Shown here: positions 1,462 through 17,395 of the stretch, piece by piece | Layout: every line of letters starts with the position of its first letter | How positions within the stretch are numbered: position 1 is the stretch's first letter | Assembly (NCBI GenBank): GCA_937868765.1 | Contig: CALMNL010000011.1 | Coordinates: forward strand, 1-64,000 | Length of the DNA stretch: 64,000 bases | Source of the DNA: an uncultured Desulfatitalea sp. | GTDB taxonomy: Bacteria; Desulfobacterota; Desulfobacteria; Desulfobacterales; Desulfosarcinaceae | Reading direction: 5' to 3' | Position numbers and translations under genes: made by a program | The notes under the pieces: generated by a model | Seen by the model: the letters and a program-made list of their open reading frames with translations, nothing else | Database searches by the model: none | What the model was told of the DNA's origin: nothing

Positions 1462-1606
1462 GGCTTGGCCTCCTTTGGGTGAATGGGTTTGGAGTTAGTG
1501 GGTAATTCCATTTTACTCGTTCACCTAATGGAAGGCCATAACCAGTATCATTCGGCTTCTGCGGGCTCGGTTCCCTCACCGCAGAGCTGAGCCGTTATGC
1601 TATAAA
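1462..1606 (-). ncRNA. Candidate bridge-RNA region of the IS110 element
   Basis: This is the noncoding stretch upstream of the IS110 transposase on its own strand. In characterised IS110-group elements (IS621 type) this end encodes the bridge RNA that pairs with target and donor DNA. I see short hairpins here, for example CTGCGG/CCGCAG and GGCTC/GAGCC within about 1558-1594, but I could not fold the RNA or define loops, so the call rests on position plus family knowledge. Confidence 0.3.
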
Positions 1607-1618
1607 CGGGGAGATCGG

Positions 1619-2062
1619 ATGATGCAATGTATTATGGATCATATAGTTTTGAATGTAGAAAACGACGAGGAAATGCTCGAATTTTACTCAAAAGTATTAA
1701 TGCTAGAGACTGAACGCAAAGAAGAATACTTACAAGGACACGTTCCATTTCCATCTGTGAGATTAAATCCTGACACCATCATAGACCTGTTTCCGAAAAA
1801 AATGTGGCAGACAATAGGCGATGGTGGGCTGGGGCGCAAGCATTTGAATCATTTCTGCATTTCGCTTAGCAAGGAGGCGTGGAAGGGACTTTTAGATCGT
1901 CTTAGAGACAATAATATCGAAATCGATGAAGGGCCAGTTCCCCGTTGGGGTGCGCATGGTAGCGGTACTTCCATTTATTTTCGAGATCCAGAAGATAATC
2001 TAATCGAAGCACGTTATTATGAGGGGCATAATAGCTCAGAAAAATGTCTTCTTGGAACATAG
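1619..2062 (+). CDS. VOC-fold (glyoxalase/dioxygenase superfamily) protein
   Basis: A 147-residue single-domain protein of the vicinal oxygen chelate superfamily. The typical beta-alpha-beta-beta-beta start is seen in MDHIVLNVENDEEMLEFYSKVL, the second module starts at HLNHFCISL, and the family's closing YFRDPEDNLIEARYY is present. The probable metal ligands are H8, the histidine in LNHFCI and the glutamate in LIEARYY. Members include glyoxalases, ring-cleavage dioxygenases and antibiotic-resistance proteins (fosfomycin or bleomycin type); nothing here fixes the substrate. GGGGAG stands just upstream of two adjacent ATGs (1619 and 1622), so the start is uncertain by one codon. Its base composition is clearly more AT-rich than the genes further right, which suggests acquisition by transfer together with the neighbouring IS elements. 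Confidence 0.8.
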   Translation: MMQCIMDHIVLNVENDEEMLEFYSKVLMLETERKEEYLQGHVPFPSVRLNPDTIIDLFPKKMWQTIGDGGLGRKHLNHFCISLSKEAWKGLLDRLRDNNIEIDEGPVPRWGAHGSGTSIYFRDPEDNLIEARYYEGHNSSEKCLLGT

Positions 2063-2345
2063 ACGATATATCCTGCGTTTCTATTCTGTTGGGGGAATGC
2101 TCCTTGCAAAACCGCTGCGTGGACACCCGGCCGTCAAAGCGCTGCTATTTTTTACATTGACAGAGCCGTCATAAAACTTGCCATTTGAGTCTACCGTGTT
2201 GGTTTTCCCGGCCGGTCACACAGCACGTTGGGTCTGTAAAAAAGTATAAAAAATACAGAAAAAGAGTTGATAGATGACCATTTTTGAAAGAAAAACTGCT
2301 TCTGATCCCACCCAACACCGCACGCCCCAAGAAGAAGTTACCAAG

Positions 2346-2679
2346 ATGGCCAGATACAAGATAGATGACAGTCCCCGGGCAAATTCATTCCGTTAGACTT
2401 CCAGGATCAGATTCAACCTGGCACCTTTTAGCGAACTTTATCTTATCTGATTGACAACAAGGCTGATCGGTCGGTTTTTGACGCGCTTTATCGTAATGAT
2501 GAAACCGGCGCACCAGGCTGTAAGCCCGCAATGCTGCTCAAAGTCATTTTGCTTGGTTACGCGCGCAGCATGGTTTCGAGGCCGAAGGCTTCGGTCAGGC
2601 CCAGGGGTACGATTTGTTAAAACCGATGATCGAAGGCACCAGAGAAAACTTCAAAACCAGCGGTCAAAAAACGGCTTAG
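2346..2679 (+). pseudogene. Decayed IS1182-like transposase remnant
   Basis: Pieces of a transposase in shifting frames. MARYKIDDSPRANSF from 2346 is followed, after a frame change near 2390, by PLDFQDQIQPGTF, an in-frame TAG, then TLSYLIDNKADRSVFDALY and DETGAPGCKPAMLLKVILLG, which is the standard N-terminus of IS1182-type transposases. From 2581 in another frame comes GFGQAQGYDLLKPMIEGTRE up to a TAG at 2677. That stretch belongs to the middle of the same protein, so a large internal deletion has occurred. No function is expected. The flanking stretches 2063-2345 and 2680-2885 hold no other gene that I can recognise. Confidence 0.7.
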
Positions 2680-2897
2680 GTCACAACTACCTTGACACCC
2701 GCCGGTACGGAAGATAAAGGTTGGGGAAAACACCTAGAAATAAAATCAGGGGTAGAAACCTGTATCCGCTGCGCGCCGCGGACAGGCATCGAGCTGACGG
2801 CCCCCAAGGTCCGGTCATGCGCTGCCGCCGCTTCCAGCCGCGGTTCATGCCTGCCGGTGGGCATTGCGGATGACTTAAAAAAAGGGGAGGAGCGTTT

Positions 2898-3425
2898 ATG
2901 GAAAAAAAAAGGGATAAAGATTATTGGAGTCCATATATCGCCGGGGCTTTTGCCGGCCTTGTACTGGTGTTGTCGGTATGGATCACTGGTAAATATTTCG
3001 GCGCGTCTACTTCATTTGTAAGATCTGCAGGGTTGATTGAAAAAGCCTTCGATGCCGAGCGGGTCGGCCAAACAGAGTATTTTGTCGAAACAACCCCTAA
3101 GATTGACTGGCAGTGGATGTTTGTGGCGGGTGTTTTTTTCGGGGCCTTGATCGCTGCCAAAGCTTCAGGAACATTTAAGGTACAAGCCGTTCCCGGCATG
3201 TGGCAGGCAAAGTTCGGTTCGAATATCGCCCCAAGAGCCATCGTCGCCTTTCTCGGCGGAACGGTGGCCATGTTCGGAGCGCGTCTTGCCGATGGCTGAC
3301 CTTCCGGTCACGGTCTGAGCGGTCTGGCTCAGCTGTCCATAAGCGGTTTCATTGCGCTGTTCTGTTTCTTTATCGGCGGAATGATCAGTGCCAATCTTTT
3401 GTATTCAGGGGGTAAAAAAAGATGA
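2898..3425 (+). CDS. Selenocysteine-containing YeeE/YedE sulfur-transport half (in-frame TGA at 3297)
   Basis: A membrane protein of the YeeE/YedE (DUF395) family, N-terminal half type, probably taking up thiosulfate or another sulfur (or selenium) species. Read conventionally the frame ends at TGA 3297-3299 after 133 residues (GARLADG-stop). Continued through the TGA it gives PSGHGLSGLAQLSISGF and a last membrane helix, ending at TGA 3423-3425 with 175 residues. The TGA sits exactly where relatives have the conserved cysteine of GARLAGGCTSGHG, so residue 134 is read as selenocysteine. A SECIS-like hairpin follows at 3315-3332. The start has an AGGGGAGG-type ribosome binding site. The true stop overlaps the ATG of the partner half by four bases (ATGA), as expected for a translationally coupled pair and not explicable if the gene ended at 3299. 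Membrane segments lie near residues 11-30, 72-90, 110-132 and 143-165. That Sec is inserted is an inference; the reading frame, motif and hairpin are seen directly. Confidence 0.85.
3300..3338 (+). promoter_or_regulatory. Bacterial SECIS element after the in-frame TGA
   Basis: Directly downstream of TGA 3297-3299 lies a perfect 6-bp stem, CUGAGC (3315-3320) with GCUCAG (3327-3332), closing a six-base loop GGUCUG. The first loop G is 21 nt after the TGA, inside the range known for bacterial SECIS elements, and the loop holds the GGU that SelB recognises; E. coli fdhF has GGUCU in the same position. The lower stem is weak, so a folding run would help. Confidence 0.75.
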
Positions 3426-3949
3426 GCCAACTACTTTACGGCCTTATCACCGGCATTCTTTTCGGATTTTTTCTGCAGCGAGGCAAAGTGTTGCGATACG
3501 ACCAACAAATCGGTGCGTTGCGCCTTATGGATATGACGATCCTAAAGTTCATGCTGACCGCCATCTTCGTCGGCGCAATTGGAATTTATCTTTTGTATGA
3601 TTTAGGTGCCGCCAAGCTGTCGATAAAACCAACCATCCTGGGTGCCACGGTTGTGGGCGGATTGCTTTTCGGAATCGGATGGGGCGTGTTGGGCTATTGT
3701 CCAGGCACATCTATCGGGGCTATCGGTGAAGGGCGTTGGGACGGGGTGTGGGGTGTCCTAGGAATGCTCGCCGGCGCGGCGCTGTACGCAGAAGCCTATC
3801 CTTTGATGAAAAAGAGCCTGCTCATTTGGGGCGACCTTGGCAAGATTACCTTACCGGGCGTGTTAAACGTGAATCACTGGTTGATTATTCCTGTTTTCAT
3901 TCTTCTTGGCGTGGGAATGTTCATTTTCTTCGAAAAAAAGAATCTTTAG
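3422..3949 (+). CDS. YeeE/YedE-family membrane protein, C-terminal half (DUF6691 type)
   Basis: A 175-residue hydrophobic protein forming the second half of a split YeeE/YedE transporter. It has about five membrane segments (near 3-20, 42-60, 72-92, 107-125 and 150-170) and the family signature GWGVLGYCPGTSIGAIGEGR near 88-107, with the conserved cysteine retained. In the thiosulfate transporter TsuA (YeeE) conserved cysteines line a substrate relay; here one of the pair is Cys and the equivalent residue in the upstream half is Sec. The ATG overlaps the upstream stop, so the two halves should be made and assembled together. Similar two-gene half pairs elsewhere (pmpA/pmpB type) accompany persulfide or sulfide detoxification genes; none is seen here. 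Confidence 0.88.
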   Translation: MSQLLYGLITGILFGFFLQRGKVLRYDQQIGALRLMDMTILKFMLTAIFVGAIGIYLLYDLGAAKLSIKPTILGATVVGGLLFGIGWGVLGYCPGTSIGAIGEGRWDGVWGVLGMLAGAALYAEAYPLMKKSLLIWGDLGKITLPGVLNVNHWLIIPVFILLGVGMFIFFEKKNL

Positions 3950-4440: not shown

Positions 4441-4596
4441 TTTCTTCATCAACTCGGACCGCGCCCGCATCGCCTTTGACGCCATCCGGTCATGGCGCTA
4501 TAATGGCACCCAATTTTGGAATCGATATCCGATCACCAAGAGACCCCAAACACCTCTGCCCTCCGTCGCTCGGAAATTCTATCGGGAGTTCAAACC

Positions 4597-5706
4597 ATGG
4601 CATTCAGTGAAACAAAACTTTTTGAGATCGTCGCGCGCATCGCTCCCCATCGCTTTGTTCAAGCCCTATTGATCATTATTCTTTTCGTGATCGTTGCCAA
4701 GATCGTGGATTTGATCATATCGAAGTTCGTCAGCCGCCTGATCAAAAAGACGAGATTCACCATCGACGACGACCTGCTGGCAATCCTTCACAGCCCCATT
4801 CTGATCAGCATCAACCTCCTGGGGCTCGGCCTGGCAGCCGATCGGATCGGCTTGCCCGACGCGATCCATTTCATCACCAGCGGCGTGCTCAAAACCATCG
4901 CCATCCTGATCTGGGCAAAGGCCATTTTCGGCGTGCTGTCGCTCATCATCGCCGTGGTAAGCCGGGACAACCGGCGCTTCAAACTATTCCAGGAGCATAC
5001 CCGCCCCCTGTTCATCAACCTGATGCTGGTGGTGGTTTTCGGCCTTTCGATTTATTCCATTTTGCTGGCCTGGGATATCGATGTGACCGCCTGGGTCGCC
5101 TCGGCCGGCATCATCGGCCTGGCCATCTCGTTCGCCGCCAAAGACACCCTGGCCAACCTGTTCGCCGGCGTGTTCATCCTGGCCGACACCCCCTACAAGT
5201 TGAACGACATGATCGTGCTCGACTCCGGCGAACGCGGCCTGGTGACCCATATCGGCATCCGCAGCACCCGCATCCTCACCCGCGACGATGTGGAAATCAC
5301 CATCCCCAACGCCATCATGGGCAGCACCAAAATCATCAACGAAACCGGCGGGCCGGCCGAATACTACCGCATCCGCATCAAGGTGGGGGTGGCCTACGGC
5401 TCGGATATCGACAAGGTCCACGCCGTGCTGACCGACGTGGCAGGCAACCATCCCATGGTGCGCCGGACCCCCGAACCGCGGGTGCGCTTCAGGGCCTTCG
5501 GCGATTCGAGCCTCGATCACGAACTGCTGTGCTGGGTCGATCAGCCGGTGCTGCGCGGCAGTGCCGTGCACGCTTTGAACACGGCCATCTACAAGCGCTT
5601 CCTGGAAGAGAAGATCGAGATCCCCTTTCCCCAGAGGGATCTGCATATCAAAAAGGCCGGGCGGCCCGCGGGCACGGACAGGCCCGGCACCGCGGCGGCC
5701 CGATAG
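4597..5706 (+). CDS. Small-conductance mechanosensitive channel (MscS family)
   Basis: A 369-residue MscS-type channel that relieves turgor on osmotic downshock. Membrane segments lie near 20-42, 66-86, 97-121 and 135-158. The pore helix and start of the beta domain follow as ASAGIIGLAISFAAKDTLAN and LFAGVFILADTPYKLNDMI (about 168-206), then the mixed alpha/beta cytoplasmic domain. ATG 4597 is preferred because GGGAG lies at suitable spacing; an in-frame ATG at 4516 would add 27 residues unlike the family. The C-terminus ends in a short polar tail. Which ion-channel subfamily it serves is not clear, but the pore signature is unambiguous. Confidence 0.92.
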   Translation: MAFSETKLFEIVARIAPHRFVQALLIIILFVIVAKIVDLIISKFVSRLIKKTRFTIDDDLLAILHSPILISINLLGLGLAADRIGLPDAIHFITSGVLKTIAILIWAKAIFGVLSLIIAVVSRDNRRFKLFQEHTRPLFINLMLVVVFGLSIYSILLAWDIDVTAWVASAGIIGLAISFAAKDTLANLFAGVFILADTPYKLNDMIVLDSGERGLVTHIGIRSTRILTRDDVEITIPNAIMGSTKIINETGGPAEYYRIRIKVGVAYGSDIDKVHAVLTDVAGNHPMVRRTPEPRVRFRAFGDSSLDHELLCWVDQPVLRGSAVHALNTAIYKRFLEEKIEIPFPQRDLHIKKAGRPAGTDRPGTAAAR

Positions 5707-5740
5707 GGCCGGCGGCCGGCACGGTCTGAGGAGTATAGCG

Positions 5741-6718
5741 ATGGGCGATTGGCTATCGGCCATCAAAAACAGGCTGGGGGCGACTTCGGCCTTGTCCCCG
5801 CCCGGCATCGCGGCGGCCATGGAACTGGTCCTGGCCAGCTCCGACCCCAAGATCCGGCTGGTGCACGGGTACAAAAGGAAACTGGCGCCCGCAGTGGAAT
5901 CCGCCTGGCAGCACATCGCCCGATTGATCGAAACCATTCCAGGCCCGTTGGACGCCACCCGGGCCGAAACCCTCTTCGATCGGCTGATAAACCCTTTTTT
6001 CATCGATAGCGCCCAATTGAAAAAGGCCCTCCGGAACGATCGGGTCTTGAACCGGTTTCTCTCCAAAGACCCGGCGGACACCTTTTTCGTGCTGCTCACC
6101 ATGCATCGTGAGGTCAAGACGATATTGGGCACCCAGCTCAAAGGCGACCTGCTGCTCAGAGATGTGGCGATGAAAAGCATCGGCTTCTCGGACCATAAAT
6201 TCAGAGTGCCTGCCTCCAGCATGGATGACGCCATCCTGGCGTTGCGCCTCGGGGTTCTGCAGATCTTGTCCAATCGGGCCCATGAAGATATCCTTGCCGA
6301 AAAAGCGCGTGAAGCGGAACTCGGTCGGCTGAGAGCGGAAATGACGGCCAAACTGAAAATCCTGGCCATGGAGAGGCCGGACCAGGCGTTGGCGGGGCGG
6401 AGCGACCCCGGCAGGCAGCCCCGCGCGGCCCAGAAAATGCTCGCAGAGATCGAGCAGGAGTTGAGCGCCATCAAGAGCAGAACCATCAACGCCGGTTACT
6501 ACCTGGAAAAAGTGCTGGGCGTGCTGGGCAGCGCCCGGGAACTGTTGACGGCCGAAGTCGTGGATATGCATATGGACCCCAAAAACCTTCTGCTGGCGGG
6601 GCCTGCCGATGCGGAAAAAGACACCATCCGGGCGCTGGACGTGAAGCTGGGCCAGACGATTCTCCGAAGCTGCGTGCTTTTGAAGTGCAGCCGGCAGGTC
6701 CTGCTGAACTGTTTTTAG
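5741..6718 (+). CDS. Conserved-looking hypothetical protein, cytoplasmic
   Basis: A 325-residue protein that I do not recognise. It has no signal peptide and no membrane segment, and is mostly helical with charged stretches (a probable coiled region near 180-250, LAEKAREAELGRLRAEMTAK). It starts 34 bases after the MscS stop with a weak GAGGAG-like site (tgaggagtat) before ATG 5741, so it may be co-transcribed with the channel. The codon pattern fits the GC-rich neighbours, which supports a real gene. No function is assigned. Confidence 0.65.
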   Translation: MGDWLSAIKNRLGATSALSPPGIAAAMELVLASSDPKIRLVHGYKRKLAPAVESAWQHIARLIETIPGPLDATRAETLFDRLINPFFIDSAQLKKALRNDRVLNRFLSKDPADTFFVLLTMHREVKTILGTQLKGDLLLRDVAMKSIGFSDHKFRVPASSMDDAILALRLGVLQILSNRAHEDILAEKAREAELGRLRAEMTAKLKILAMERPDQALAGRSDPGRQPRAAQKMLAEIEQELSAIKSRTINAGYYLEKVLGVLGSARELLTAEVVDMHMDPKNLLLAGPADAEKDTIRALDVKLGQTILRSCVLLKCSRQVLLNCF

Positions 6719-7018
6719 GGGGGACTTGCGATACGAGCCCCAGGCGCCGCCTTCCTTGGTAAGATATCTGCCCACAATAAAACCAAGGCACCGGATTTTT
6801 TCGGGTGCGGGGTGAATCCGTCGATTTTTCATTCCTTTGCCCCCTTTGGCGCCGGCAGCGCCGACTCGACAAAAAGGACGAATTAGAGTAGTCATGCAAT
6901 GTCAGCGGATTGTGCCGGTTCACGGCGCCGGAGGCTCTGCGGCCCATCGGAATTGGTTTGCGGGCCAAGAGCAGATGGACGGTCCGCCAATGGGGCTTTG
7001 CGGCAGGGATGCGGCGGC

Positions 7019-7861
7019 ATGTATTTTCCACCTCGGTTCGACCATAAACGCGCCATACTGCTGGGCAGTCTGGTCGAGATGGCCTATAACGGGTTCCAAT
7101 CGCTCGAGGCCGACAGGACCTGGCATCTGCCGGCAGAGTATCGTTTGATCGACGAGATCAAATATTCGGTCATCGCCAACAGCATCGTCGACAAAGACAG
7201 CCCCATAGGAAATTTTATCCTGAAGCTGCCCTTGTTCAAAGACCGCAAGATCAGCGAGATTCCCATCGGGTTCATCGCCCATCAAAAACGGGCGGTCTAC
7301 CTCATATTCAGAGGGACGCAGAACTCCACCGAATGGATCAACAACCTGAACGCCCGGCTCACGTCGTTCCTGATCGACGGCCACGGCAGCGTTCACGATG
7401 GCTTTCTCACTTTATATCTGAACGTCCGCGACAAACTGCTCGACGTGGCCAAAACATTTCCGAAAAAGAGCGAGATCCATCTTGCCGGACACAGCCTCGG
7501 GGCGACCCTGGCGGTCCTGGCGGCGTGCGACCTCGAAAGCACCCTGGGATTGAAGGTCGCGTCGCTGTATACCTTCGGGTCGCCCCGAATCGGGGACAAC
7601 GATTTCGCCACCGCCTTCAACCGATCGTTTGCCCATAAATCGTTTCGCATCGCGAACTCTTCCGACATGGTCACCGAAGTGCCGTTCCCTTCCAGGTTCG
7701 CGGGTTTTTTCGGCGGCTATTTTTCCCATGTCGAGACCCCGGTCGTATTTACGGTTCAAGAAAACGATAATATAAAGAACCATCAGATGGCGACCTACCT
7801 GGCCGCATTGGCCGGTTGCAGGCGCAATCCGATTCGGAGCTTTTTCGAAATCTTCGGATAG
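7019..7861 (+). CDS. Class 3 lipase (alpha/beta hydrolase, lipase_3)
   Basis: A 280-residue lipase of the fungal-type class 3 family, hydrolysing acylglycerols or phospholipids. The oxyanion region is VYLIFRGTQNSTEWINN, the nucleophile elbow GHSLGATLA holds the catalytic Ser, the Asp is in NSSDMVTEVPF and the His in NHQMATY near the C-terminus, so the triad is complete. No clear signal peptide is seen, so it is probably cytoplasmic or exported by an unusual route. The start chosen (ATG 7019, MYFPPRFDHKRA) matches how the family begins; a longer in-frame start at 6899 would add an arginine-rich stretch that looks like noncoding DNA. The 300-bp gap 6719-7018 otherwise contains nothing that I recognise. 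Confidence 0.85.
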   Translation: MYFPPRFDHKRAILLGSLVEMAYNGFQSLEADRTWHLPAEYRLIDEIKYSVIANSIVDKDSPIGNFILKLPLFKDRKISEIPIGFIAHQKRAVYLIFRGTQNSTEWINNLNARLTSFLIDGHGSVHDGFLTLYLNVRDKLLDVAKTFPKKSEIHLAGHSLGATLAVLAACDLESTLGLKVASLYTFGSPRIGDNDFATAFNRSFAHKSFRIANSSDMVTEVPFPSRFAGFFGGYFSHVETPVVFTVQENDNIKNHQMATYLAALAGCRRNPIRSFFEIFG

Positions 7862-7918
7862 CAGTGTAAAATCGGAAGTCGGCACTGAACCTGAGGCGGA
7901 TACAAGGAGATGCGTGCA

Positions 7919-8431
7919 ATGCGAGTGAAGCGAAAGATGGGGCCGGTCGGGGAGTTTATTTTTGCCATCGTTTTTCTGGTGGCCGGTTGCGGGGTCATTT
8001 ATTTGATGGGATCGGATTTCACGCTGGTCTGCCATCGCGACCGCAATGCCTGCACCATCGAAGAAACCAATCCCTTCAAAGACAAGGAAGTCATCACCAC
8101 GCTGCAGCTGAGCGACATCCAGAAGGCCGAGGTGGCGGAATGGCGAGATTCCAAGGGCAAGTCCTCCTACCGGCCGGTGCTGCTGGTCGATGGGACGCGG
8201 GTGCCGCTTTCGGACGTCTACAACGGCAGCTACAGCGCCTGCAGCAAAACGGCGAACAAAATCAACGCCTATCTGCAATCGAAGGAGGCCGATTTCTCGT
8301 TCACCCAATCGGGGAAGGCGCCCGCCATCATCGGCATTATCTTTGCGGCCGTGGGCGCCTTGCTGATACTGCGGTTCCTGTGGAAAGTGCTGAAGCTGAT
8401 GCTCAGGCTGATCGTGGTCGTCGCCAAATAG
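7919..8431 (+). CDS. Hypothetical membrane protein with two transmembrane segments
   Basis: About 170 residues. The first membrane helix lies near 10-30 (GEFIFAIVFLVAGCGVIYLMG), then comes a roughly 95-residue soluble domain with two cysteines (VCHRDRNACTI) and a second long helix near 135-168. An AAGGAG at 7904-7909 directly abuts the ATG at 7910, which leaves no spacer, so the next in-frame ATG at 7919 is the better start. The soluble part looks like a small beta-rich domain (LLVDGTRVPLSDVYNGSYS). It converges with the large gene on the other strand. No family recognised. Confidence 0.7.
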   Translation: MRVKRKMGPVGEFIFAIVFLVAGCGVIYLMGSDFTLVCHRDRNACTIEETNPFKDKEVITTLQLSDIQKAEVAEWRDSKGKSSYRPVLLVDGTRVPLSDVYNGSYSACSKTANKINAYLQSKEADFSFTQSGKAPAIIGIIFAAVGALLILRFLWKVLKLMLRLIVVVAK

Positions 8432-8458: not shown

Positions 8459-11400
8459 TTAAACGTACTTCTTCATGGCTTCGAGATATTCGCCGTAGCG
8501 CGACAGGTAGAAGGCCAGCCCCCGGGCGAAGTCGTGCCCCAGTATGCCGTCGATGAACATCTGGCTGATGTCGCGCTGGCGCAGCAGCGTGAGCTGGGAG
8601 GTCACCAGCAGGTGGCGCTCCTCTTCGTTGATGTTGCGCAGCAACTGGTCCAGGGCGCTGCGCGCCCGGGGTTGATACATCCAGAAATAGAGCAGGTCCA
8701 GGGAATGGATGGTGATGATCTTCTCCAGGTCGCGCGCCTCGTGGTGGGCCTTTTTGCGGAAGCGTTCGGCGTTCTGGATCAGGTCATAGGAATCGGTCTC
8801 GGGGAAGAGCAGTTCGAGCTGGGCGTAGATCGAAAGCAGTTCGGAGAGCTTCTGGCGGTAATCCCGGAAGCGGGTGCGGATGTTGTTATAACGGTCGGAG
8901 GTGCCTTCGATGATGCCGGCCATCGAATCCGAGGCGGCTTTGGAGATGATGGCCGCCCATTTCTGAAGCACATCGGTGACGGCCTGGACGCCGGCCGCCG
9001 AGAGCAGCTGCCCCACCACCAGATTGAGCGCGATGGCGACGGGGATGGACAGGGCGCTGCGGAAGAAGTTGGCGAAGACCACTTCCTTGGGCAGGCCGCG
9101 CAGGGCATTGTGCGATGAGAGATAAAGGCCGTTGACGACCGCCATGATGGTGTAGAGCAACACCGGCGCGGTGGCGGTGGTGATGCCCAGGCCGCGTTCG
9201 AGCAACACCGTCTTGGTCAGGTAGTCGAGCAGGGGCACCGAGAAGCCCGTGAAGAGCAGCGAATCGGCGATGCGGTCCCAGCTGACGTAGGCGTTCCAGC
9301 GCAGCATGGGCGAGCGCCGCAGCCCGCCGCCGCCCAAAACCGATTGCAGGATGTTGCGCACGCCGGTGATGCCGAACCAGATGAACGCCCCCAGGTAGGC
9401 CAGCAGCCACCACTGCTTGGTCAGGTAAAAAGTGAGAAAGGCCGGCACGAATCCGATGAACACTTTGAGCAGGTTGCGCAGATGGGAGTTGATGTAGCGA
9501 GAGGAGATCTTTCTGCGCCGGCTGTTCTCCGGCGGTATCAGGGTGAGGCCGTTATGGGTGGTTTTACGCACCCCCCCCAGGGTCACCACGTTGCCCGTTT
9601 CGGTCATGCGGGTTTCCCGACCCTCCACATGCCAGTCTATTTTCCGGGTGGTGCCGAGCCACCAGGGCCACCCTGTGCGCGGAATGCTGCCCCACCGCTG
9701 GGGCTTGTAGCTGTGGGCCCCTGTGGGGATATAGGTGTGGCGGCGATAGACGGTGATATGGATCGGCAGGCGGTCGCGGCCGATGCCCATGTCTTCTGCA
9801 ATTTGCCGGCGCGCCCGGTTGGGCAGGGTTTCGATGACCGCCACGCCCATGCCATGGGCCCGGGGGGTGCGGCCGGTGGAGTCGCTGCCGATGCGGGCCT
9901 TGAGCGGCTTGACCTGGTACATGGTCTGCAACGAGCCGATGTCATGTAAAATGGCCTTGAGTTTGGCCAGGCGCTCGGCCTCGATCGGGGGTTTGCGTTC
10001 TTCCTCCTGCTGGAAGATTTCCAGGATCAACCGTTTGAGCTTGATGGGGTTGTGGCCGTTGATGGTCTGCTGCAGCCGGCTGATGGCCGGGATGTGCGCC
10101 ATGTGGCTGTTGGCCCAATCCTTCAGGTTGAACAGCTCCAGCCGGCTGATCATGCCGTTGCAGTCGTAAAGCAGCTCGAGCACATCGGCGACCTTGAGAT
10201 GGGACAGGTTCAGGGTGACGCGGTAGCCCGACTGCAGGGCGGCCAGGCGGCCGAGCAGGTCGGCGGGCGCCAGCTTGAGCAGTTCGGGCACCTCGGGGCC
10301 ATCGCCGGGCACCGAATGATCGGGGATATCGCGATTGTTTTCCGGTTTCAGATAGTCGGCCACCACCGCTTCCAGGTTCAACGGGTCCATGCGTTGGAAC
10401 CAGGCTTCGATCCGTTTGGCCTCGGCGGCGTCGGCCGCGGCATGGGCTTGCCGGAGTTGTTCGGCCCTGACGGTCAGGGCCGCGCGCATTTTCTCTTCGA
10501 TGAACTTCTCCAGATGGAGCACCGATTTCTGGCCGATGCCCACGAAGGCGATGAACTCCCGGGCCTCGATGGGCGCCATGTCGATGCCGTAGTTGGCATT
10601 GAGCTCGGCCAGGTGGCGGCGGTTGAAGGCCTCCAGCAGCGTCATCACATGGGCCTGCTGGTATTGGGAGGCGCGGCGGCCCTCGCTCATCAGGGCCGCC
10701 ACCGCCGGCTCTTCCAGGAAGCACAGAAAGGCCTGGGTGTCGGGAAATCCCCGGGGCACCCAGATCAGGTTGATGTACTTGCCGCGGAAGGGGGTATAGA
10801 ACTCGATGCCGATGCGGATGTCGATCTCCATGATGCGGGCCGCTTCGGCCAGTTCGGCGGCGAAGCGCGGTTCGATATAGTTGTAATGCACCACGCGCAG
10901 CCGCCGGATGCCCTTGATCCAGGCGTCCATGATCAAGTGGGTCGAAGATTTGCGTCCCTTGGTGTTGATGTCGTGGACATGATCGTCGAAGGAGATCTGG
11001 TTCCACTCCTCGGGCATTTCCAGCAGGTGGTAGTTGCGCAGCTGCTTGCGCACCCGGCGGGGTTTGCCCGCGGCGGTGATGCGGAAATCGTGGACCAGCT
11101 GCAATTGGCGCAGCGGGTCGTCGCCGGCCCGCACGGCCTCTTTCATGATCTGCATCAAGACCCGGGCCGTGTTTTTGGGCATGGGGCCCTCGGCGGTGTC
11201 CAGCACTTCGGCGCGCAGCGAGCGCAGGGCATCCAGGCGGTCGTCCATGCCGCCGATTTCCAGGGAGGTGAGCAGGTGGACCATGGCATAGGCGATGCGC
11301 AGGCTGCGCGATTCGGCCATCTCCTTGATGCCGTGGGGGTGGAAATGGCGGTAGTAGCGTTTGCGGGTGTATTCGAGATCCCGGGCGCCGGCGCCGGCGG

Positions 11401-11539
11401 CATTGATGATGCGGATCAATTCATGGTCGCGACGATCGAAGAGATAGCGCGGAATCTTCAGGGCGGCATTGGCGGCCTTGAGCGATGGCGGCTTCGGGCT
11501 GATCTTCAAGGCTTTCAGATAGTCGTTGCTGCTGGTCAT
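8459..11539 (-). CDS. Very large hypothetical protein: soluble PHP-like N-terminal part plus C-terminal membrane domain
   Basis: A 1026-residue protein that I cannot place in a named family. Residues 1-670 are soluble; they contain an HxH motif in FDDHVHD (185-190), GIEF at 244-247, and GSDSTGRTPRAHGMG at 551-565, a set reminiscent of metal-binding PHP phosphoesterases. Residues about 690-850 hold four to five membrane helices around a glycine-rich loop (SVLGGGGLRRSP). The last 170 residues are helical and soluble. ATG 11539 is preferred; a TTG at 11590 would add 17 residues, and neither start has a strong ribosome binding site. Codon use fits the neighbours and no frame break is seen. It is transcribed alone, convergent with the gene at 7919. 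The PHP comparison is an inference from motifs only. Confidence 0.8.
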   Translation of the reverse strand: MTSSNDYLKALKISPKPPSLKAANAALKIPRYLFDRRDHELIRIINAAGAGARDLEYTRKRYYRHFHPHGIKEMAESRSLRIAYAMVHLLTSLEIGGMDDRLDALRSLRAEVLDTAEGPMPKNTARVLMQIMKEAVRAGDDPLRQLQLVHDFRITAAGKPRRVRKQLRNYHLLEMPEEWNQISFDDHVHDINTKGRKSSTHLIMDAWIKGIRRLRVVHYNYIEPRFAAELAEAARIMEIDIRIGIEFYTPFRGKYINLIWVPRGFPDTQAFLCFLEEPAVAALMSEGRRASQYQQAHVMTLLEAFNRRHLAELNANYGIDMAPIEAREFIAFVGIGQKSVLHLEKFIEEKMRAALTVRAEQLRQAHAAADAAEAKRIEAWFQRMDPLNLEAVVADYLKPENNRDIPDHSVPGDGPEVPELLKLAPADLLGRLAALQSGYRVTLNLSHLKVADVLELLYDCNGMISRLELFNLKDWANSHMAHIPAISRLQQTINGHNPIKLKRLILEIFQQEEERKPPIEAERLAKLKAILHDIGSLQTMYQVKPLKARIGSDSTGRTPRAHGMGVAVIETLPNRARRQIAEDMGIGRDRLPIHITVYRRHTYIPTGAHSYKPQRWGSIPRTGWPWWLGTTRKIDWHVEGRETRMTETGNVVTLGGVRKTTHNGLTLIPPENSRRRKISSRYINSHLRNLLKVFIGFVPAFLTFYLTKQWWLLAYLGAFIWFGITGVRNILQSVLGGGGLRRSPMLRWNAYVSWDRIADSLLFTGFSVPLLDYLTKTVLLERGLGITTATAPVLLYTIMAVVNGLYLSSHNALRGLPKEVVFANFFRSALSIPVAIALNLVVGQLLSAAGVQAVTDVLQKWAAIISKAASDSMAGIIEGTSDRYNNIRTRFRDYRQKLSELLSIYAQLELLFPETDSYDLIQNAERFRKKAHHEARDLEKIITIHSLDLLYFWMYQPRARSALDQLLRNINEEERHLLVTSQLTLLRQRDISQMFIDGILGHDFARGLAFYLSRYGEYLEAMKKYV

Positions 11540-11768
11540 CACGGCTCTGTTGTCGTAAGGTGCGTCCGTCGGGTCTGCCTTGACGGCCAAGTTATCGAAA
11601 TTGAGCCAATATTATTAAAAGCAGCCCGGAAAAGCAATCGCGATTGATCTTGCCCCCTTTTTCGGGTACATCTCGCCGGACTGCCGGCTCTTGCGGGCAG
11701 TCGACCGGGGCCGTCATCCCGGTCTTGCGCAGGAAACACAGCCGAAGGCCAGCCGCCAGGAAATTATC

Positions 11769-12071
11769 ATGAGACGATTCAAATTGTGGCACGCCGTGGC
11801 GATCCTGATCGCCGCCCTGATCCTCAACGGTTGCGCCTACGTGCACACCAAAACCCCTTTCGATACCAACCTCGACACCACCGACCTGGGCACCAAGGTG
11901 GGGACGGCCGAGGCCCGCAGCGTTTTGTGGCTGGTGGCCTGGGGCGATGCCAGCTACGAAGCGGCCGCGCGCAACGGCGGCATCAAGGTGCTCAAGCATG
12001 CCGACCAGGAGGATCTGGTGGTGTTGTTCGGCTTGTATGTCCGCTGGCGCGTGATCGTCTATGGAGATTGA
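11769..12071 (+). CDS. TRL-like family lipoprotein
   Basis: A 100-residue small lipoprotein. The signal peptide ends in the lipobox LNGC (Cys near residue 21), and the mature part has the TRL-family pattern LGTKVGTAEARSVLWLVAWG followed by DASYEAAARNGGIKVLKHAD and a C-terminal VLFG...VYGD beta hairpin. AGGAA stands seven bases before ATG 11769. Function of the family is unknown. A second member follows immediately, so the two form a small operon. Confidence 0.8.
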   Translation: MRRFKLWHAVAILIAALILNGCAYVHTKTPFDTNLDTTDLGTKVGTAEARSVLWLVAWGDASYEAAARNGGIKVLKHADQEDLVVLFGLYVRWRVIVYGD

Positions 12072-12075
12072 GGCC

Positions 12076-12423
12076 ATGGGGCCGAATCGCGGAAAGCGCC
12101 TGGGGGCAGCGCTGCTGCTGGCCTGCCTGCTCTGCGGCTGCGGCGTGCCGCGGCCGCGGGGTATTATCTATACCAATTTGAAGTTGCCGCTGACCCGGGA
12201 TCTGCATGGTGCCCCCAATCCGGAAGACAAGCCCACCAGCGGACGAACCCTGGAGATCAAGGAGCCGATTTCAGGGTTGGGCCTTTACGTGGAGGTCGAC
12301 TCCAATGCCATCGGCGACATCGCCCGCCAGCACGGGATGCAGACCCTGTACTGGGCCGACCACCAGTATTTCAGCATCCTGGGGGTCTGGACCACGGACA
12401 GGACCATTCTTTTTGGCGAGTGA
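12076..12423 (+). CDS. Second TRL-like lipoprotein
   Basis: A 115-residue paralog-type lipoprotein. It has a lipobox LCGC near residue 22, then a longer N-terminal linker (GIIYTNLKLPLTRDL) and a C-terminal core with the NAIGDIARQHGMQTLYWADH and ILFGE pattern of TRL-like proteins. GGAG at 12063-12066, inside the end of the upstream gene, is spaced correctly for ATG 12076; the in-frame ATG at 12061 overlapping that gene is less likely. It starts four bases after the first lipoprotein's stop, so translation is probably coupled. Confidence 0.78.
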   Translation: MGPNRGKRLGAALLLACLLCGCGVPRPRGIIYTNLKLPLTRDLHGAPNPEDKPTSGRTLEIKEPISGLGLYVEVDSNAIGDIARQHGMQTLYWADHQYFSILGVWTTDRTILFGE

Positions 12424-12468
12424 AAAGCTGCCGTTCATGGCCGGTTCCGCTGCGCCCCGCCAAAACGC

Positions 12469-12496
12469 AAGGGCTTCCCGAGGCGGGGGCCCTTTC
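12469..12496 (+). terminator. Likely intrinsic terminator after the TRL lipoprotein pair
   Basis: Hairpin with outer stem AAGGGC/GCCCTT (12469-12474 with 12489-12494) and inner stem CCCG/CGGG, followed by a pyrimidine-rich TTCCTCTT tract. It lies 45 bases after the lipoprotein stop and before the rRNA methyltransferase gene. Confidence 0.5.
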
Positions 12497-12619
12497 CTCT
12501 TGATCGCCTGCCAGAGGCTGGTTGACTTTACGGGCCGATCCACTACTATCGGCCTTTGCCAGGACGGCCGGCGCATGATGGCATGCGGGCAGCGGCCGTA
12601 CTGAAACGAGGACCGGCCC

Positions 12620-13765
12620 ATGCGCCCATTGGAATATCTGCAAACCCAGCGCTATTTCGCCCAGATCGCCGAAGGTTTCCAGGCGGCCGCCTCCCAGGAG
12701 TTGACGGCGCTCGGGGCCACGGCCGTCGAACCGGGATTCCGGGGGCTGCACTTTACCGCCGATCGAGCCGCCCTTTACCGCATCAATTACCAGGCCCGTC
12801 TGCTCACGCGGGTGCTGGCGCCGTTGGCCGTATTCCGCTGCCGGCACCGGGAAGACCTTTACCAGGCGGCGCGCCGAATCGACTGGCCGGCGCTTTTCTC
12901 CGTGGACCGGACCTTTGCCGTCTTCGCCAATGTGAACGCCAACCCCGGGCTGACCCACTCCAAGTTCGCGGCATTGTGTCTCAAGGATGCCGTGGCCGAC
13001 GCCTTCCGGGAGCGCCACGGCCGGCGGCCGGACGTGGATCGGGACGATGCGGATATCTGGCTCAACCTGTATATCGAAAAAGAACAGGCCACCATCAGCC
13101 TGGACACCTCGGGCGGCTCGCTGCATCGCCGGGGGTATCGGCGCGAGACGGTGGCGGCCCCCATGCAGGAGACCCTGGCGGCGGCCATGGTGGCGGCCTC
13201 GGGCTGGCGGGGCGAAAAGCCGCTGTACGATCCCATGTGCGGCGGCGGTACGCTGCTGTGCGAAGCCTTGATGCACCTCGCCGCCATTCCGGCCGGCTAC
13301 CTGCGGTCCCGGTTCGGCTTTCAGTCCATGCCCGATTTCGACGGCGGCCTGTGGCGGCAGATCAAAAGCAGTGCCGATGCGCAGATCCGACCGATCGCGC
13401 CCGGCGCCATTGCCGGCAGCGACATCGACCCGGCGGCCGTGAAAGCCGCGGCTATCAACTGCGTCACCCTGCCCGGGGGGCGGCAGATCCATCTGACCCG
13501 GTCCGATCTGTTCGCCTTGCCGGCGCTGGAAAACCGGGTGATCCTGTGCAACCCGCCCTATGGCATCCGCCTTACGGATGGCAACCTGGGCGCGTTCTAC
13601 AAAGAGTTGGGCAATTTTCTCAAGCGCCGCTGCAAAGGGTCGGAGGCCTACCTCTACTTCGGCAACCGGGAGATGTTGAAACAGATCGGGCTGCGGCCGG
13701 CCTGGAAGCGGCCGATGCGCAATGCGGGGCTGGATGGGCGGTTGGCCAAGTTTGAGTTGTATTGA
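12620..13765 (+). CDS. THUMP-domain class I RNA methyltransferase (RlmL-like)
   Basis: A 381-residue SAM-dependent guanine-N2 methyltransferase of the RlmL/YpsC type, acting on 23S rRNA. A THUMP RNA-binding region covers about residues 50-165 (HREDLYQAARRIDWPALFSV and DDADIWLNLYIEKEQATISL). The Rossmann catalytic domain has the SAM motif LYDPMCGGGTLLCEA near 200, IAGSDIDPAAVKAA near 265 and the target-base motif NPPYG near 312. It has only the RlmL half; the fused RlmK half found in E. coli is absent, which is the usual form outside gammaproteobacteria. A weak GAGG site precedes ATG 12620. Confidence 0.9.
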   Translation: MRPLEYLQTQRYFAQIAEGFQAAASQELTALGATAVEPGFRGLHFTADRAALYRINYQARLLTRVLAPLAVFRCRHREDLYQAARRIDWPALFSVDRTFAVFANVNANPGLTHSKFAALCLKDAVADAFRERHGRRPDVDRDDADIWLNLYIEKEQATISLDTSGGSLHRRGYRRETVAAPMQETLAAAMVAASGWRGEKPLYDPMCGGGTLLCEALMHLAAIPAGYLRSRFGFQSMPDFDGGLWRQIKSSADAQIRPIAPGAIAGSDIDPAAVKAAAINCVTLPGGRQIHLTRSDLFALPALENRVILCNPPYGIRLTDGNLGAFYKELGNFLKRRCKGSEAYLYFGNREMLKQIGLRPAWKRPMRNAGLDGRLAKFELY

Positions 13766-13828
13766 AGATCTTCCGGATGGGCTCAGCGGCCGAAGGGGGA
13801 AGGTCGGGGGGAACGTGATGAGGGGACT

Positions 13829-15598
13829 ATGGCGTTGATCGGCATGCGCGAGGTGCGCTGGGGTTTCGGCGGTCCGGCGCTGCTGGACGGCGTTTCGTTT
13901 CAGATCGAACGGGGCGAACGGGTGTGCCTGGTCGGCCGCAACGGGGTGGGCAAGTCGAGCCTGCTGCGGCTGCTCACCCGACAGATCGTGCCCGACGCCG
14001 GTGAGGTGTGGTGCCAGCAGGGCGTCAAGGTGGCCTCCCTGGAACAGGAGGTGCCGGCCGGCTGCCGGGGCACGATCTTCGAGGTGGTGGCCCAGGCCCT
14101 GGGGGGCGCCGGGGACCCCCAGGCGGTGGAGAGCATGCTCGCCCGCACCGGCCTCGCGCCGCAACAGCCGTTCGCCGAGCTTTCCGCGGGCATGAAGCGG
14201 CGCACCCTCTTTGCCCGGGCGCTGGTGATGGCGCCCGATCTGCTGCTGCTGGACGAACCCACCAACCACCTGGATATCGAGGCCATCGAGTGGATGGAGC
14301 AGTTCCTCCTGCGCCAGGTCAAGACCATGCTCTTCGTGACCCATGACCGCGCTTTCCTGAAGCGTCTGGCCACGCGCATCATGGAACTGGACCGCGGCGG
14401 TCTGTACTCGTATGCCTGCGACTACGACACCTACCTTTCGCGCCGGTCGGCCGACCTGGAGACCGAGGCCCGACACCAGAAGCGTTTCGACAAGAAGCTC
14501 TCCCAGGAAGAGGCCTGGATCCGCCAGGGCATCAAGGCCCGGCGCACGCGCAACGAGGGCCGCGTGCGGGCCCTGCAGAAACTGCGGGCCGAGGCCCGGG
14601 CGCGCCGCGCCGCCGTCGGCCAGGTGCGCCTGCAACTGCAGGAGGCCGAGCGCACCGGCAAGCTGGTGATCGAGGCGCAAAATTTAACCCACCGCTTCGA
14701 CGGCCGGCCCATCGTGCAGGATTTTTCCACGACCATCCTGCGGGGGGAGAAGGTGGGCATCATCGGCCCCAACGGCGCGGGCAAGACCACGCTGATCCAT
14801 CTGCTGCTCGGGAAAATCCAGCCGGATGAAGGCAGCGTGCGCCACGGCACCCATGTGCAGGTGGCCTATTACGACCAGCTGCGGGCCCAACTGGACGAAG
14901 CGAAGACCGTGGCGCAGAACATCGCGCCGGACAACGACTACATCCTCTTCAACGGCCAGAAGCGGCATGTGATCAGCCATCTCCAGGACTTCCTCTTTTC
15001 GCCCGAGCGCTGCCGCACGCCGGTGCAGGTGCTTTCGGGGGGCGAGCGCAACCGTCTGATGCTGGCCAAGCTCTTCACCCAGCCGGCCAATGTGCTCGTG
15101 CTGGACGAACCCACCAACGACCTGGATGTCGAGACCCTGGAACTGCTCGAAGAACTGCTGCTGGATTTCGGCGGCACGCTCCTGCTGGTGAGCCACGACC
15201 GTGCCTTTTTGAACAATGTCGTCACCAGCACGCTGGTCTTCGAAGGCCGGGGCCGGGTGGTGGAGTACGCCGGCGGGTACGACGACTGGCTCTCCCAGCG
15301 CCCCAGACCGGCGCCGGCCGAGAGTGTCGAAACGAAGAAGCCCCGGCCCGCGCGGCCGCCGGCGGCCAAGCCGCAGCGACTCACCTTCAACCAGGCCCGG
15401 GAACTCAAGGAATTGCCCGCCGCCATCGAAGCTTTGGAGAAGGAGCAGGGCGCCCTGCACGCGCGCATGGCCGACCCGGAGTACTACAAGCGCGCCAAGC
15501 AGGAGATCGTGGCCGACCAGCGGCGCCTGGAAGAGATCGAAACGGCGGTCGCCGCGGCCTATGCGCGCTGGGAGCAGCTGGAGGCCATCGGGAAGTAG
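13829..15598 (+). CDS. ABC-F family ATPase (Uup-like)
   Basis: A 589-residue soluble protein with two ATP-binding cassettes and no membrane part, the pattern of ABC-F translation or ribosome-associated factors. Cassette 1 has Walker A GRNGVGKSS near 38, signature LSAGMKRR and Walker B LLLLDEPTNHLD. The linker of about 75 residues is basic and helical. Cassette 2 has GPNGAGKTT near 317, LSGGERNRL and VLVLDEPTNDLD. A C-terminal coiled coil (about 520-585, LPAAIEALEKEQGALHARMA) matches the Uup-type DNA or RNA-binding tail. Both catalytic glutamates are present. It is followed after 87 bases by the YcaO gene on the same strand. Confidence 0.92.
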   Translation: MALIGMREVRWGFGGPALLDGVSFQIERGERVCLVGRNGVGKSSLLRLLTRQIVPDAGEVWCQQGVKVASLEQEVPAGCRGTIFEVVAQALGGAGDPQAVESMLARTGLAPQQPFAELSAGMKRRTLFARALVMAPDLLLLDEPTNHLDIEAIEWMEQFLLRQVKTMLFVTHDRAFLKRLATRIMELDRGGLYSYACDYDTYLSRRSADLETEARHQKRFDKKLSQEEAWIRQGIKARRTRNEGRVRALQKLRAEARARRAAVGQVRLQLQEAERTGKLVIEAQNLTHRFDGRPIVQDFSTTILRGEKVGIIGPNGAGKTTLIHLLLGKIQPDEGSVRHGTHVQVAYYDQLRAQLDEAKTVAQNIAPDNDYILFNGQKRHVISHLQDFLFSPERCRTPVQVLSGGERNRLMLAKLFTQPANVLVLDEPTNDLDVETLELLEELLLDFGGTLLLVSHDRAFLNNVVTSTLVFEGRGRVVEYAGGYDDWLSQRPRPAPAESVETKKPRPARPPAAKPQRLTFNQARELKELPAAIEALEKEQGALHARMADPEYYKRAKQEIVADQRRLEEIETAVAAAYARWEQLEAIGK

Positions 15599-15685
15599 AG
15601 GCAAGCCGGAACGAACGCCGACCCGCCCGATGTCGACTGCCCGATGCGACAGAAGGATCGGCAGGGGAAGAAATTGGAGGATGGT

Positions 15686-17395
15686 TTGACCGAGATTCAG
15701 AACTACCGCTTGACCCGCATCAAGACCGAGGCCGCCACCGGCTATTTCGACTGCACACCGGAAACGGACTGGGATTTCGATACGGCCCTGGCCTGGAGCC
15801 GCGGCCGGCCCAACGACGAGTTCATGCGCAAGCACCTGCTGCGCCGCATGGCCGATTGGACACCCGAAGAACTTCAAGGCCGTTTGCGCCGGACCGATCC
15901 GGAAGATCTTTTCCTCAAAGCCCTGCTCTTCGAGGCCTGTCTGCTGCTGGCGCCGTTCGCCCCCCTGCGGCGCCTTTTCCCGGAAAAGGAGCGGGCGCGC
16001 CTGGCACCGGCTTCGCCGCTGATCTACATCAAAAGCCAGGCCCGTTCCGATCACCAATTGCACCGCCGCTGGGTCCGCCAGCTGCGGCCCAACCTCGAGG
16101 GCCATGCGCCGCTGCCCGACCCGCGGCAGGTGGGGCTGCCGGCACCGGTGCCCCAGGCCGCCATCGACCGGGCCATGACGGTGGCGATGCCCCTTGCGCG
16201 CCTGGCCGCCGCCTTCGGCCCCAAAGCCGAGGCCCCGGCAGTGCGCGTCGCCGACCTCGAAGCGCTCACCGATTTGGCCCTGGAAAGGCTGGCTGCCGCC
16301 GGCGCGACCCTGGGCGCGGAGATGCGCCACGAGGCGTCACTCAGTCCCATCGCCCTGCTGCGCTCCTGGCAGTTGTCCCATGAGGTGGATTGCGGCCGGC
16401 ACCACTATCGCTTCGCCGGCGAGCAGATCAGCTACGGCCGGGGCCTGGAACTGGCCGAGGCCCGGGTGGCCTGTGTCATGGAGATCGTGGAACGGGTCTC
16501 GTCCTATGCCACCATCCGGGACGGTCGGGCCCAGGGCTACCGGCAGCCCCACCAACTGACCCACGCCCGTCTTTCGGAGTTGGCGGCCGAAGGCCGCGAG
16601 GCCCTGGACCCCAACCGGCTGGGGCTGGAGGCGCCCTACCGGGACGAGCCGCTTTACTGGATCGAAGGCCGCACGGCGGATGCCGCCGGCGCCCGTCCCG
16701 TCCTGGTGCCGGCCCAGGCGATCTTTCTCTTCTGCAACCTGGACGAGGTCAAACTCTTCTCGTCCTGGGGTTCCAATGGACTGGGCGCCGGGGCCAGCCC
16801 GGCCCAGGCGCGGGCCAAGGCGCTGCTGGAGGCCATCGAACGCGACTGCGCGGCCACCGTGCCCTACGCGCCGGCCCTTTGCTTCGACGTGGAAACCCGC
16901 GACGCCCGCATCGCCCGCCTGCTCCAGAGCTACGCCGAATTGGGCATCCGGGTCGGGTTCCTGGACATCACCGGCCCCCTGGGGCTGCCCTGCTGCAAGA
17001 GCTTCGTCGTGCATCCCGACGGCCAGGTGGCCGCCGGTACCGGCGCCCATCTCGATGCCCGCCGTGCCTTGATGTCGGCCCTCACCGAAACCCCTTATCC
17101 CTATCCCCACGGCCCCATCTCCCGGCCCCTGCCGCCGGCTGCCGTGCGCGTGCCCCTGGAGGCGCTGCCCGATTACGACCGGGGCGATGCCCGGGAGAAC
17201 CTGCGCCTGCTCGAACAATTGCTGCTCGCCAACGGATTCGACCCCATTTACGTCGATCTGACCCGCGCCGACCTCGATCTGCCGGTGGTGCGCGCCCTGG
17301 TGCCGGGCATGGCGCTCTCGAGCGATCTGGATCGCTTCGCCCGGGTCCATCCGCGACTCTACGGCCATTACCTGAAGCACGCACAGTCGGTTTAA
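15686..17395 (+). CDS. YcaO-domain protein
   Basis: About 569 residues. YcaO enzymes use ATP to activate peptide backbone amides; stand-alone YcaO proteins are linked to ribosomal protein S12 modification or thioamide formation. The N-terminal ~170 residues are not YcaO. The ATP-binding core starts near ISYGRGLELAEARVACVMEI and contains the KALLEAIERDCAATVPY glutamates and an SSWGSNGLGAGASPAQARAK stretch; the C-terminus ends in PGMALSSDLDRFARVHPRLY. The start chosen is TTG 15686 because GGAGG lies five bases before it; an in-frame ATG at 15644 lacks a ribosome binding site. No TfuA, dehydrogenase or precursor peptide is adjacent, which argues against a thiazole/oxazole peptide cluster. Confidence 0.85.
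   Translation: MTEIQNYRLTRIKTEAATGYFDCTPETDWDFDTALAWSRGRPNDEFMRKHLLRRMADWTPEELQGRLRRTDPEDLFLKALLFEACLLLAPFAPLRRLFPEKERARLAPASPLIYIKSQARSDHQLHRRWVRQLRPNLEGHAPLPDPRQVGLPAPVPQAAIDRAMTVAMPLARLAAAFGPKAEAPAVRVADLEALTDLALERLAAAGATLGAEMRHEASLSPIALLRSWQLSHEVDCGRHHYRFAGEQISYGRGLELAEARVACVMEIVERVSSYATIRDGRAQGYRQPHQLTHARLSELAAEGREALDPNRLGLEAPYRDEPLYWIEGRTADAAGARPVLVPAQAIFLFCNLDEVKLFSSWGSNGLGAGASPAQARAKALLEAIERDCAATVPYAPALCFDVETRDARIARLLQSYAELGIRVGFLDITGPLGLPCCKSFVVHPDGQVAAGTGAHLDARRALMSALTETPYPYPHGPISRPLPPAAVRVPLEALPDYDRGDARENLRLLEQLLLANGFDPIYVDLTRADLDLPVVRALVPGMALSSDLDRFARVHPRLYGHYLKHAQSV

Follow-up and report, generated by a model that had tools for sequence, protein, structure and literature searches.

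The minus strand of the 64,000-nucleotide stretch analyzed here (the window; positions 1 to 64,000 of contig CALMNL010000011.1, assembly GCA_937868765.1, from an uncultured Desulfatitalea sp.) carries at 8459-11539 a gene for a large protein, P0001, in which a barrel of the PHP type, akin to that of RNase AM, appears to be joined to a conserved membrane domain. The gene stands alone between two plus-strand genes, a 173-amino-acid (aa) frame (7910-8431) and a TRL-type gene (11691-12071). Its frame runs uninterrupted through 1026 codons plus stop from an ATG at 11539; it stays open farther upstream as far as a TTG at 11590, which would give 1043 aa. Because matches to most of the more distant relatives begin only at residue 23-33, the ATG start is reasonable, not proven. 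Aligned relatives share 40-88% identity with the window protein, and comparison with L003, an 88%-identical relative, gave a nonsynonymous divergence (dN) of 0.075 against a synonymous divergence (dS) of 0.430, a mark of purifying selection: this is a real gene and no chance frame. The original prediction had described a single 1026-residue frame of no named family, with a soluble part, a multi-helix membrane domain and a helical tail, and with H187 and H189 in DDHVHD, E246 in GIEF, D553 in GSDSTGR, and H562. Translation, hydropathy and modeling bear this description out, down to the position of each residue, and Pfam and NCBIfam scans yielded no model that gives the protein a name. Nor was a description of the family found in the literature searched, a search that left subscription papers mostly outside.

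The family is widespread among the relatives of its host. Matches at E ≤ 0.001 occurred in 26 of 40 related genomes and in 32 of 297 genomes of the phylum, the window's own genome being counted in both, and a relative is encoded in 489 of the 509 stretches that matched a pattern in a genome collection. Only the best 80 of these pattern-matched relatives were fetched; the record titles, seen for those 80, name Desulfatitalea, Desulfobacteraceae, Desulfobacterales, Syntrophales, Thermodesulfobacteriota, "Deltaproteobacteria" and similar taxa, a few being just "Proteobacteria" or "bacterium." Plasmid and phage searches and the PADLOC defense library gave no match, and PHROGs gave one, of function not known (E 0.055). 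Conservation is counted here over 106 nonredundant members (126 rows minus 20 near-copies), a set that leans toward close relatives of the window protein because the best 80 were kept and loci were taken for only part of the genome-search matches.

An AlphaFold2 model of the window protein (78 sequences; predicted local distance difference test [pLDDT], 81.7; predicted template modeling score [pTM], 0.81) places N-terminal helices up to about residue 170 and a barrel from 183 to about 606, inside which lies a long helical insert (268-435). The barrel is followed by a linker of low conservation and then by the membrane part, where the model and the hydropathy peaks show five long hydrophobic helices between 685 and 848; a long, more polar helix (854-911) and a helical tail that extends to 1026 complete the chain. 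Mean pairwise identity, calculated from 33 sequences over eight ranges, was highest in the first part of the barrel (68.6%, residues 180-265), with 37.4% in the insert and 44.3% in the second half; the membrane domain reached 59.1%, the N-terminal region 55.8% and the linker 27.4%. The gene and its regions are as follows.

8459..11539, minus strand: whole gene, 1026 aa plus stop (translation, relatives, dN and dS).
11015..11539, minus strand: N-terminal helical region, residues 1-175 (model; 55.8% identity over residues 30-175).
10745..11002, minus strand: first half of the PHP barrel, residues 180-265, strands 1-4 (model, structural comparison, profile comparison).
10235..10744, minus strand: helical insert in the barrel, residues 266-435, where RNase AM has its insertion domain (model, profile alignment).
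9722..10234, minus strand: second half of the PHP barrel, residues 436-606, strands 5-7 (fold by model and structural comparison).
8990..9487, minus strand: membrane domain, residues 685-850, with its five hydrophobic helices (hydropathy, models, 59.1% identity).
9098..9112, minus strand: H810-N811 and R814 at the end of membrane helix 4 (106/106 each).
8807..8980, minus strand: long helix 854-911 (model; S870 and E878 invariant; K867, D871 and D882 in 105/106 each).
8462..8806, minus strand: C-terminal helical tail, residues 912-1026 (models).

The soluble part was predicted to fold as the distorted (beta/alpha)7 barrel of PHP proteins, a result on which the model and the structural comparison agree. 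A structure search of residues 150-570 against PHP phosphoesterases had been proposed at the outset, and the PHP fold was indeed recovered: in the structural comparison the top 25 rows, from Z 19.6 down to Z 10.5, held nothing but PHP proteins and polymerases that carry a PHP domain, and row 26 dropped to Z 6.1. The first three Foldseek matches were all of the same kind (E 1.2e-5 to 1.9e-5). The best fold match was BAD_1165 of Bifidobacterium adolescentis (3o0f, also solved as 3e0f; Z 19.6, root mean square deviation [rmsd] 2.8, 250 residues aligned), a 301-residue putative phosphoesterase that, unlike the window protein, has no membrane part. CV1693 of Chromobacterium violaceum (2yb1; Z 18.4, rmsd 3.1, 260 aligned) is likewise a 292-residue chain without one; its product complex contains adenosine monophosphate and phosphate, and its active-site architecture is the same as that of RNase AM, according to the accessible part of PMC9410882. 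RNase AM itself (Escherichia coli rnm/yciV; Vibrio cholerae structure 9etk; Z 18.4, rmsd 3.4, 262 aligned) shares with the window protein the PHP barrel, the helical insert and its His, as well as the HxH, the Glu and the probable Asp of the alpha-metal site. It differs in having about 290 aa, no membrane part and three metals; the window protein appears to have other residues at the ligand places of two of these metals, and it has N-terminal helical, membrane and tail regions in addition. A more distant likeness is to E. coli DNA polymerase III alpha (2hnh; Z 13.7), whose PHP domain, a variant one within a polymerase, has five of nine ligands changed. That domain retains the fold and has lost the metal ligands, as far as the text available for PMC3666897 goes, whereas the window family consists of membrane proteins with a probable alpha site in most members.

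Sequence comparison leads to the same branch of the superfamily. A profile of 33 members aligned with one of 33 RNase AM-type sequences (E. coli rnm plus relatives of the PHP protein L149) with probability 69.6, E 4.2e-5 and score 44.9, compared with 15.9 for the reversed profile, 24.4 for the best of 60 column-shuffled controls and 23.2 for the best of 60 reversed-block-shuffled ones. The N- and C-terminal parts of the same protein scored 15.5 and 17.7 against the RNase AM profile, and residues 1-180 gave no profile match to it. The significant match spans strands 1-4 and part of the insert only. Addition of six further members raised the probability to 91.0 (E 1.1e-6), and a divergent member, L193, reached 96.0 alone (E 4.2e-9); both of these comparisons were made without scrambled controls. 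L193 (954 aa; G034, 396-3260, plus strand) comes from the same taxonomic order. In a search of 395 genomes it found the family, including the window gene at E 2.7e-36, and also matched many frames of about 280-330 aa from E 3e-7 upward (E-values for one genome), several of which coincide with RNase AM-type genes (e.g., G083:C9:64820, G049:C37:2846 and G078:C51:25034). Direct sequence search of solved structures with P0001 or the 33-member alignment (A1) returned no PHP entry, and L193 gave only a weak PHP match (3e0f, E 0.048). Taken at the sequence level, the profile comparison and the bridging member L193 establish that the window protein is homologous to PHP proteins. That there is no such relation and the motifs arose by chance is very improbable, because fold, the deeper profile comparison and L193 all agree; in its favor stand the lack of a Pfam or NCBIfam match and a five-sequence PHP profile that was not significant.

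In RNase AM, as given in the accessible part of PMC9410882, the alpha Mn is bound by His13, Glu72 and Asp255, the beta Mn by Glu72, His83 and His198, and the gamma Mn by Asp20, His45 and His257. Alignment of the window protein with RNase AM pairs H187 with His13, H189 with His15, K194 with Asp20, E246 with Glu72, N257 with His83, and H342 with His143; the counterpart of His45 is Y219 (no gaps) or Y221 (two-residue gap), depending on the alignment. By motif and strand order, D553 corresponds to Asp255, T555 to His257 and L445 to His198. The half in which a counterpart of the phosphate-contacting Arg201 of RNase AM would lie did not align significantly. In the model the proposed ligand residues fall at strands 1, 3 and 7 or immediately past them, the usual place of PHP ligands. 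The positions concerned are these.

10973..10981, minus strand: H187-V188-H189, HxH on strand 1 (H187 in 106/106, H189 in 99/106).
10949..10960, minus strand: K194-G195-R196-K197, basic loop at the place of the gamma-metal ligand Asp20 (K194 in 103/106, R196 in 105/106, K197 in 106/106).
10802..10804, minus strand: E246, aligned with Glu72 of RNase AM (100/106).
10514..10516, minus strand: H342, an insert residue that pairs with His143 of RNase AM, in the RGHFAR stretch of its insertion domain (105/106).
9881..9883, minus strand: D553 of the GSDST motif that follows strand 7, equated with Asp255 from motif and strand order (96/106).
9854..9856, minus strand: H562, an earlier ligand candidate (His in 61/106).

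The HxH expected on strand 1 of a PHP protein is present, as is a helical insertion domain with a conserved His (H342), as in RNase AM. All four alpha-site residues (H187, H189, E246 and D553) occur in P0001 and in 91 of the 106 members; K197, D205, E468 and N471 are identical in all 106, and H201 and R242 in 104. By contrast with these, a search for beta- and gamma-metal ligands found His at position 257 in 4 members and at 445 in 1. Judged from sequence, the alpha site is therefore retained, and the beta and gamma ligands appear replaced. Mapping of the residues singled out by the original prediction gave high conservation for the first four (106, 99, 100 and 96 of 106) and withdrew H562, at just 61 of 106, as a conserved ligand. 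Its idea of a membrane-tethered metal-dependent phosphoesterase survives in part: a PHP fold is joined to a membrane domain, but the ligand residues of the beta and gamma sites are replaced. Since those residues are replaced and 15 of 106 members lack a full alpha site, such activity is plausible and remains putative. Substitution of a metal by a positively charged side chain has precedent in variant PHP domains that lack metals, in which Arg is what most often takes the place of the ligand at six of the nine positions, according to the accessible part of PMC3666897; by analogy we infer that K194, R196 and K197 may stand in for the lost metals. The divergent member L193 keeps an NHP motif at the His198 place, Glu at 194 and His at 257, all lost from the main family, and has Ala at 553, where the main family keeps Asp.

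Because the three-metal site was tested for and not found, we do not file the window protein as an RNase AM. A membrane-bound exoribonuclease or nucleotide phosphatase with the chemistry and substrates of RNase AM seems improbable to us, even though the nearest fold matches include RNase AM and CV1693 and the insert is kept together with its His (H342, 105/106). RNase AM uses three metals, and D20A, E72A or D255/H257A disrupts its activities (PMC9410882, in the part available), whereas the D20 and H257 places in the window protein hold K194 and T555. Moreover, the genome has a separate RNase AM-type gene (G000:C4:1276466-1277368; 51% identity to the query, with one TGA within the match).

Loss of the site within the family was seen in a genus labeled g93. 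All seven genomes examined carry a copy with H189Y and D553S or D553N; four of the seven also carry a complete-site copy, and three carry the altered copy alone. The count covers these seven genomes, with G425, G443, G461 and G480, of the same genus and with matches, outside it. In the seven altered copies H189Y is paired with D553S or D553N, and Y219 and D474 are changed too; judged from these substitutions, loss of the site is coordinated in the altered copies. In one genome (G228) there is a third copy, altered to E246Q and D553A. In a tree of the 106 rows (quick method, midpoint root, with gains and losses scored alike by the tool), the complete-site and altered g93 copies join at support 100, and the altered side, including the G228 third copy, has support 99; the placement of that copy and of L193 is unsure because of long branches. 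Five E246S rows (L077, L101, L104, L107 and L114) group together at support 100. On this tree four changes of the complete-site label are required, at least three of them forced by well-supported branches. The g93 genomes that hold just the altered copy show that the protein persists without its metal site; where two copies share a genome, we would guess that they divided the work.

This pattern suits a different reading, in which the PHP domain, like the variant one of E. coli DNA polymerase III, is a noncatalytic binding domain that senses a nucleotide or phosphorylated ligand and controls a membrane domain that does the real work, such as transport or signaling. We take it as a real rival because the site changed repeatedly: four complete-site changes, three of them forced, occurred while seven polar residues of the membrane domain stayed constant in all 106 members, three of seven g93 genomes carry the altered copy alone, and metal-free variant PHP domains are known (PMC3666897, in the part available). 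We nevertheless judge it possible and somewhat unlikely, as 91 of 106 members retain all four alpha-site residues and strands 1-4 are the most conserved of the eight ranges, which fits an active site in use.

The constant residues are N803, H810, N811, R814, R827, S870 and E878, identical in 106 of 106 members, including those with a lost metal site. Since these polar residues are invariant where the metal site is gone, the membrane domain is probably no mere anchor. Lys and Arg are abundant ahead of membrane helix 1, in the stretch linking helices 2 and 3, and beyond residue 880, a distribution that would place the PHP barrel in the cytoplasm provided that the positive-inside rule applies. 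Residues 660-1026 folded alone gave pLDDT 80.8 and pTM 0.66. Among the matches listed for this part, Foldseek found nothing better than E 1.1 against solved structures, the best in a second structural comparison was Z 7.1, to helical repeats and not convincing, and the best viral match had E 0.31. A likeness of motifs in the membrane part to SpecificRecomb (PF10136, Gcr-type) was an impression; profile comparison of the helical and membrane parts, with shallow profiles of two and four sequences, gave no match and lent it no support.

In 65 loci (64 of the 80 fetched, hand-picked for their flanks, plus the window), no cluster of neighbor proteins occurred in more than 9, and the widest resembles, by sequence and without a family search, common ABC-transporter ATPases. 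Twelve further loci of one family shared neighbors in at most 5, which track the two g93 gene copies, e.g., a frame that is GroEL-like by sequence. In five of six g93 loci (L222-L227), the altered copy has a co-oriented frame of about 399 aa downstream, some 0.3-0.6 kb past the end of the match; by a look at its sequence, without a family search, it resembles an iron-containing alcohol dehydrogenase. A promoter scan gave 1 promoter-like site (shuffles mean 0.9) and a terminator scan 5 terminator-like sites (shuffles mean 3.0, standard deviation 1.8); none was used.

Elsewhere in the window, long frames at 10052-11647 (plus), 12374-14680 (minus) and 14687-16330 (minus) run opposite real genes: the PHP gene, a YcaO gene (15644-17392) and, at 13829-15595, an ATPase of the ABC-transporter type that has two ABC domains. 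The two minus-strand frames have no Pfam family and one weak NCBIfam match (E 0.47), and these long opposite-strand frames look like shadow frames. Near the PHP gene and on the other strand, an MscS-type mechanosensitive channel, a 325-aa frame without a family and a class 3 lipase lie in a row (4516-7861, plus). Two half-length plus-strand frames (2898-3296 and 3422-3946) each match Sulf_transp (PF04143), and we presume that they may form a two-gene sulfur transporter of the YeeE/YedE type; an IS110-type transposase (PF01548, PF02371) lies at 418-1458 on the minus strand.

To this evidence we give a reading that we hold at about an even chance: P0001 represents a divergent PHP family without a name, closest in both fold and sequence to the RNase AM/CV1693 branch of the superfamily, and the members of the family are in most cases probably inner-membrane, one-metal phosphoesterases. 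A PHP barrel with a helical insert, presumably cytoplasmic, lies between an N-terminal helical region and the conserved membrane domain. In most members H187, H189, E246 and D553 would hold one metal ion at the alpha site; the invariant or nearly invariant K194, R196, K197, H201 and R242, along with H342 of the insert, may make up for some of the charge that went with the two lost metals and also bind phosphate. A phosphoester would then be hydrolyzed at the membrane face, or else cleaved or bound in a pocket beside the membrane.

Several results weigh against a one-metal phosphoesterase of this descent. Five RNase AM ligand places hold other residues (K194, Y219 or Y221, N257, L445 and T555), and at least one alpha-site residue is absent in 15 of 106 members. 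At the His45 place a one-residue shift is possible because H218, which adjoins it, is His in 34 of 78 and Tyr in 42 of 78 sequences. Compared by itself, the second barrel half (residues 425-610) scored 18.2, with shuffles up to 23.5, and so lacks a significant match; D553, T555 and L445 were therefore placed by motif and fold. The first profile comparison, with five PHP sequences of which two are copies of one gene, reached only probability 0.9, E 0.065 and score 22.1, and in full-length mode gave no useful alignment. PF02811 at its cutoff matched neither P0001 nor the 33 aligned members (A1), L193, L194 or L219, and in the whole genome it matched eight other places, the gene at 8459-11539 not among them; since fold and profile comparison agree, we read the missing match as low sensitivity of the model. 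Because three of seven g93 genomes have the altered copy only, catalysis at the site cannot make up the whole function there. Finally, neither gene neighbors nor the defense library hint at a substrate.

A bolder proposal, which we offer tentatively and think doubtful as it stands, would make the family a new class of bacterial membrane protein. In it an RNase AM-like barrel, cut to one metal with near-invariant Lys and Arg in the stead of the other two, would serve as cytoplasmic gate or sensor of a membrane domain with its own invariant polar center, and some lineages would have a pure sensor, beside or instead of a complete-site sister copy.

The work adds a PHP family missed by Pfam and NCBIfam, in which an RNase AM-like barrel is joined to a conserved membrane domain. 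Its members range from those with a full metal site through those with part of one to those with none, sister copies within a single genome among them, and so make a test series for how PHP enzymes lose metals and become binding domains. If the protein is active, it would locate phosphoester chemistry at the inner membrane in sulfate reducers and related bacteria.

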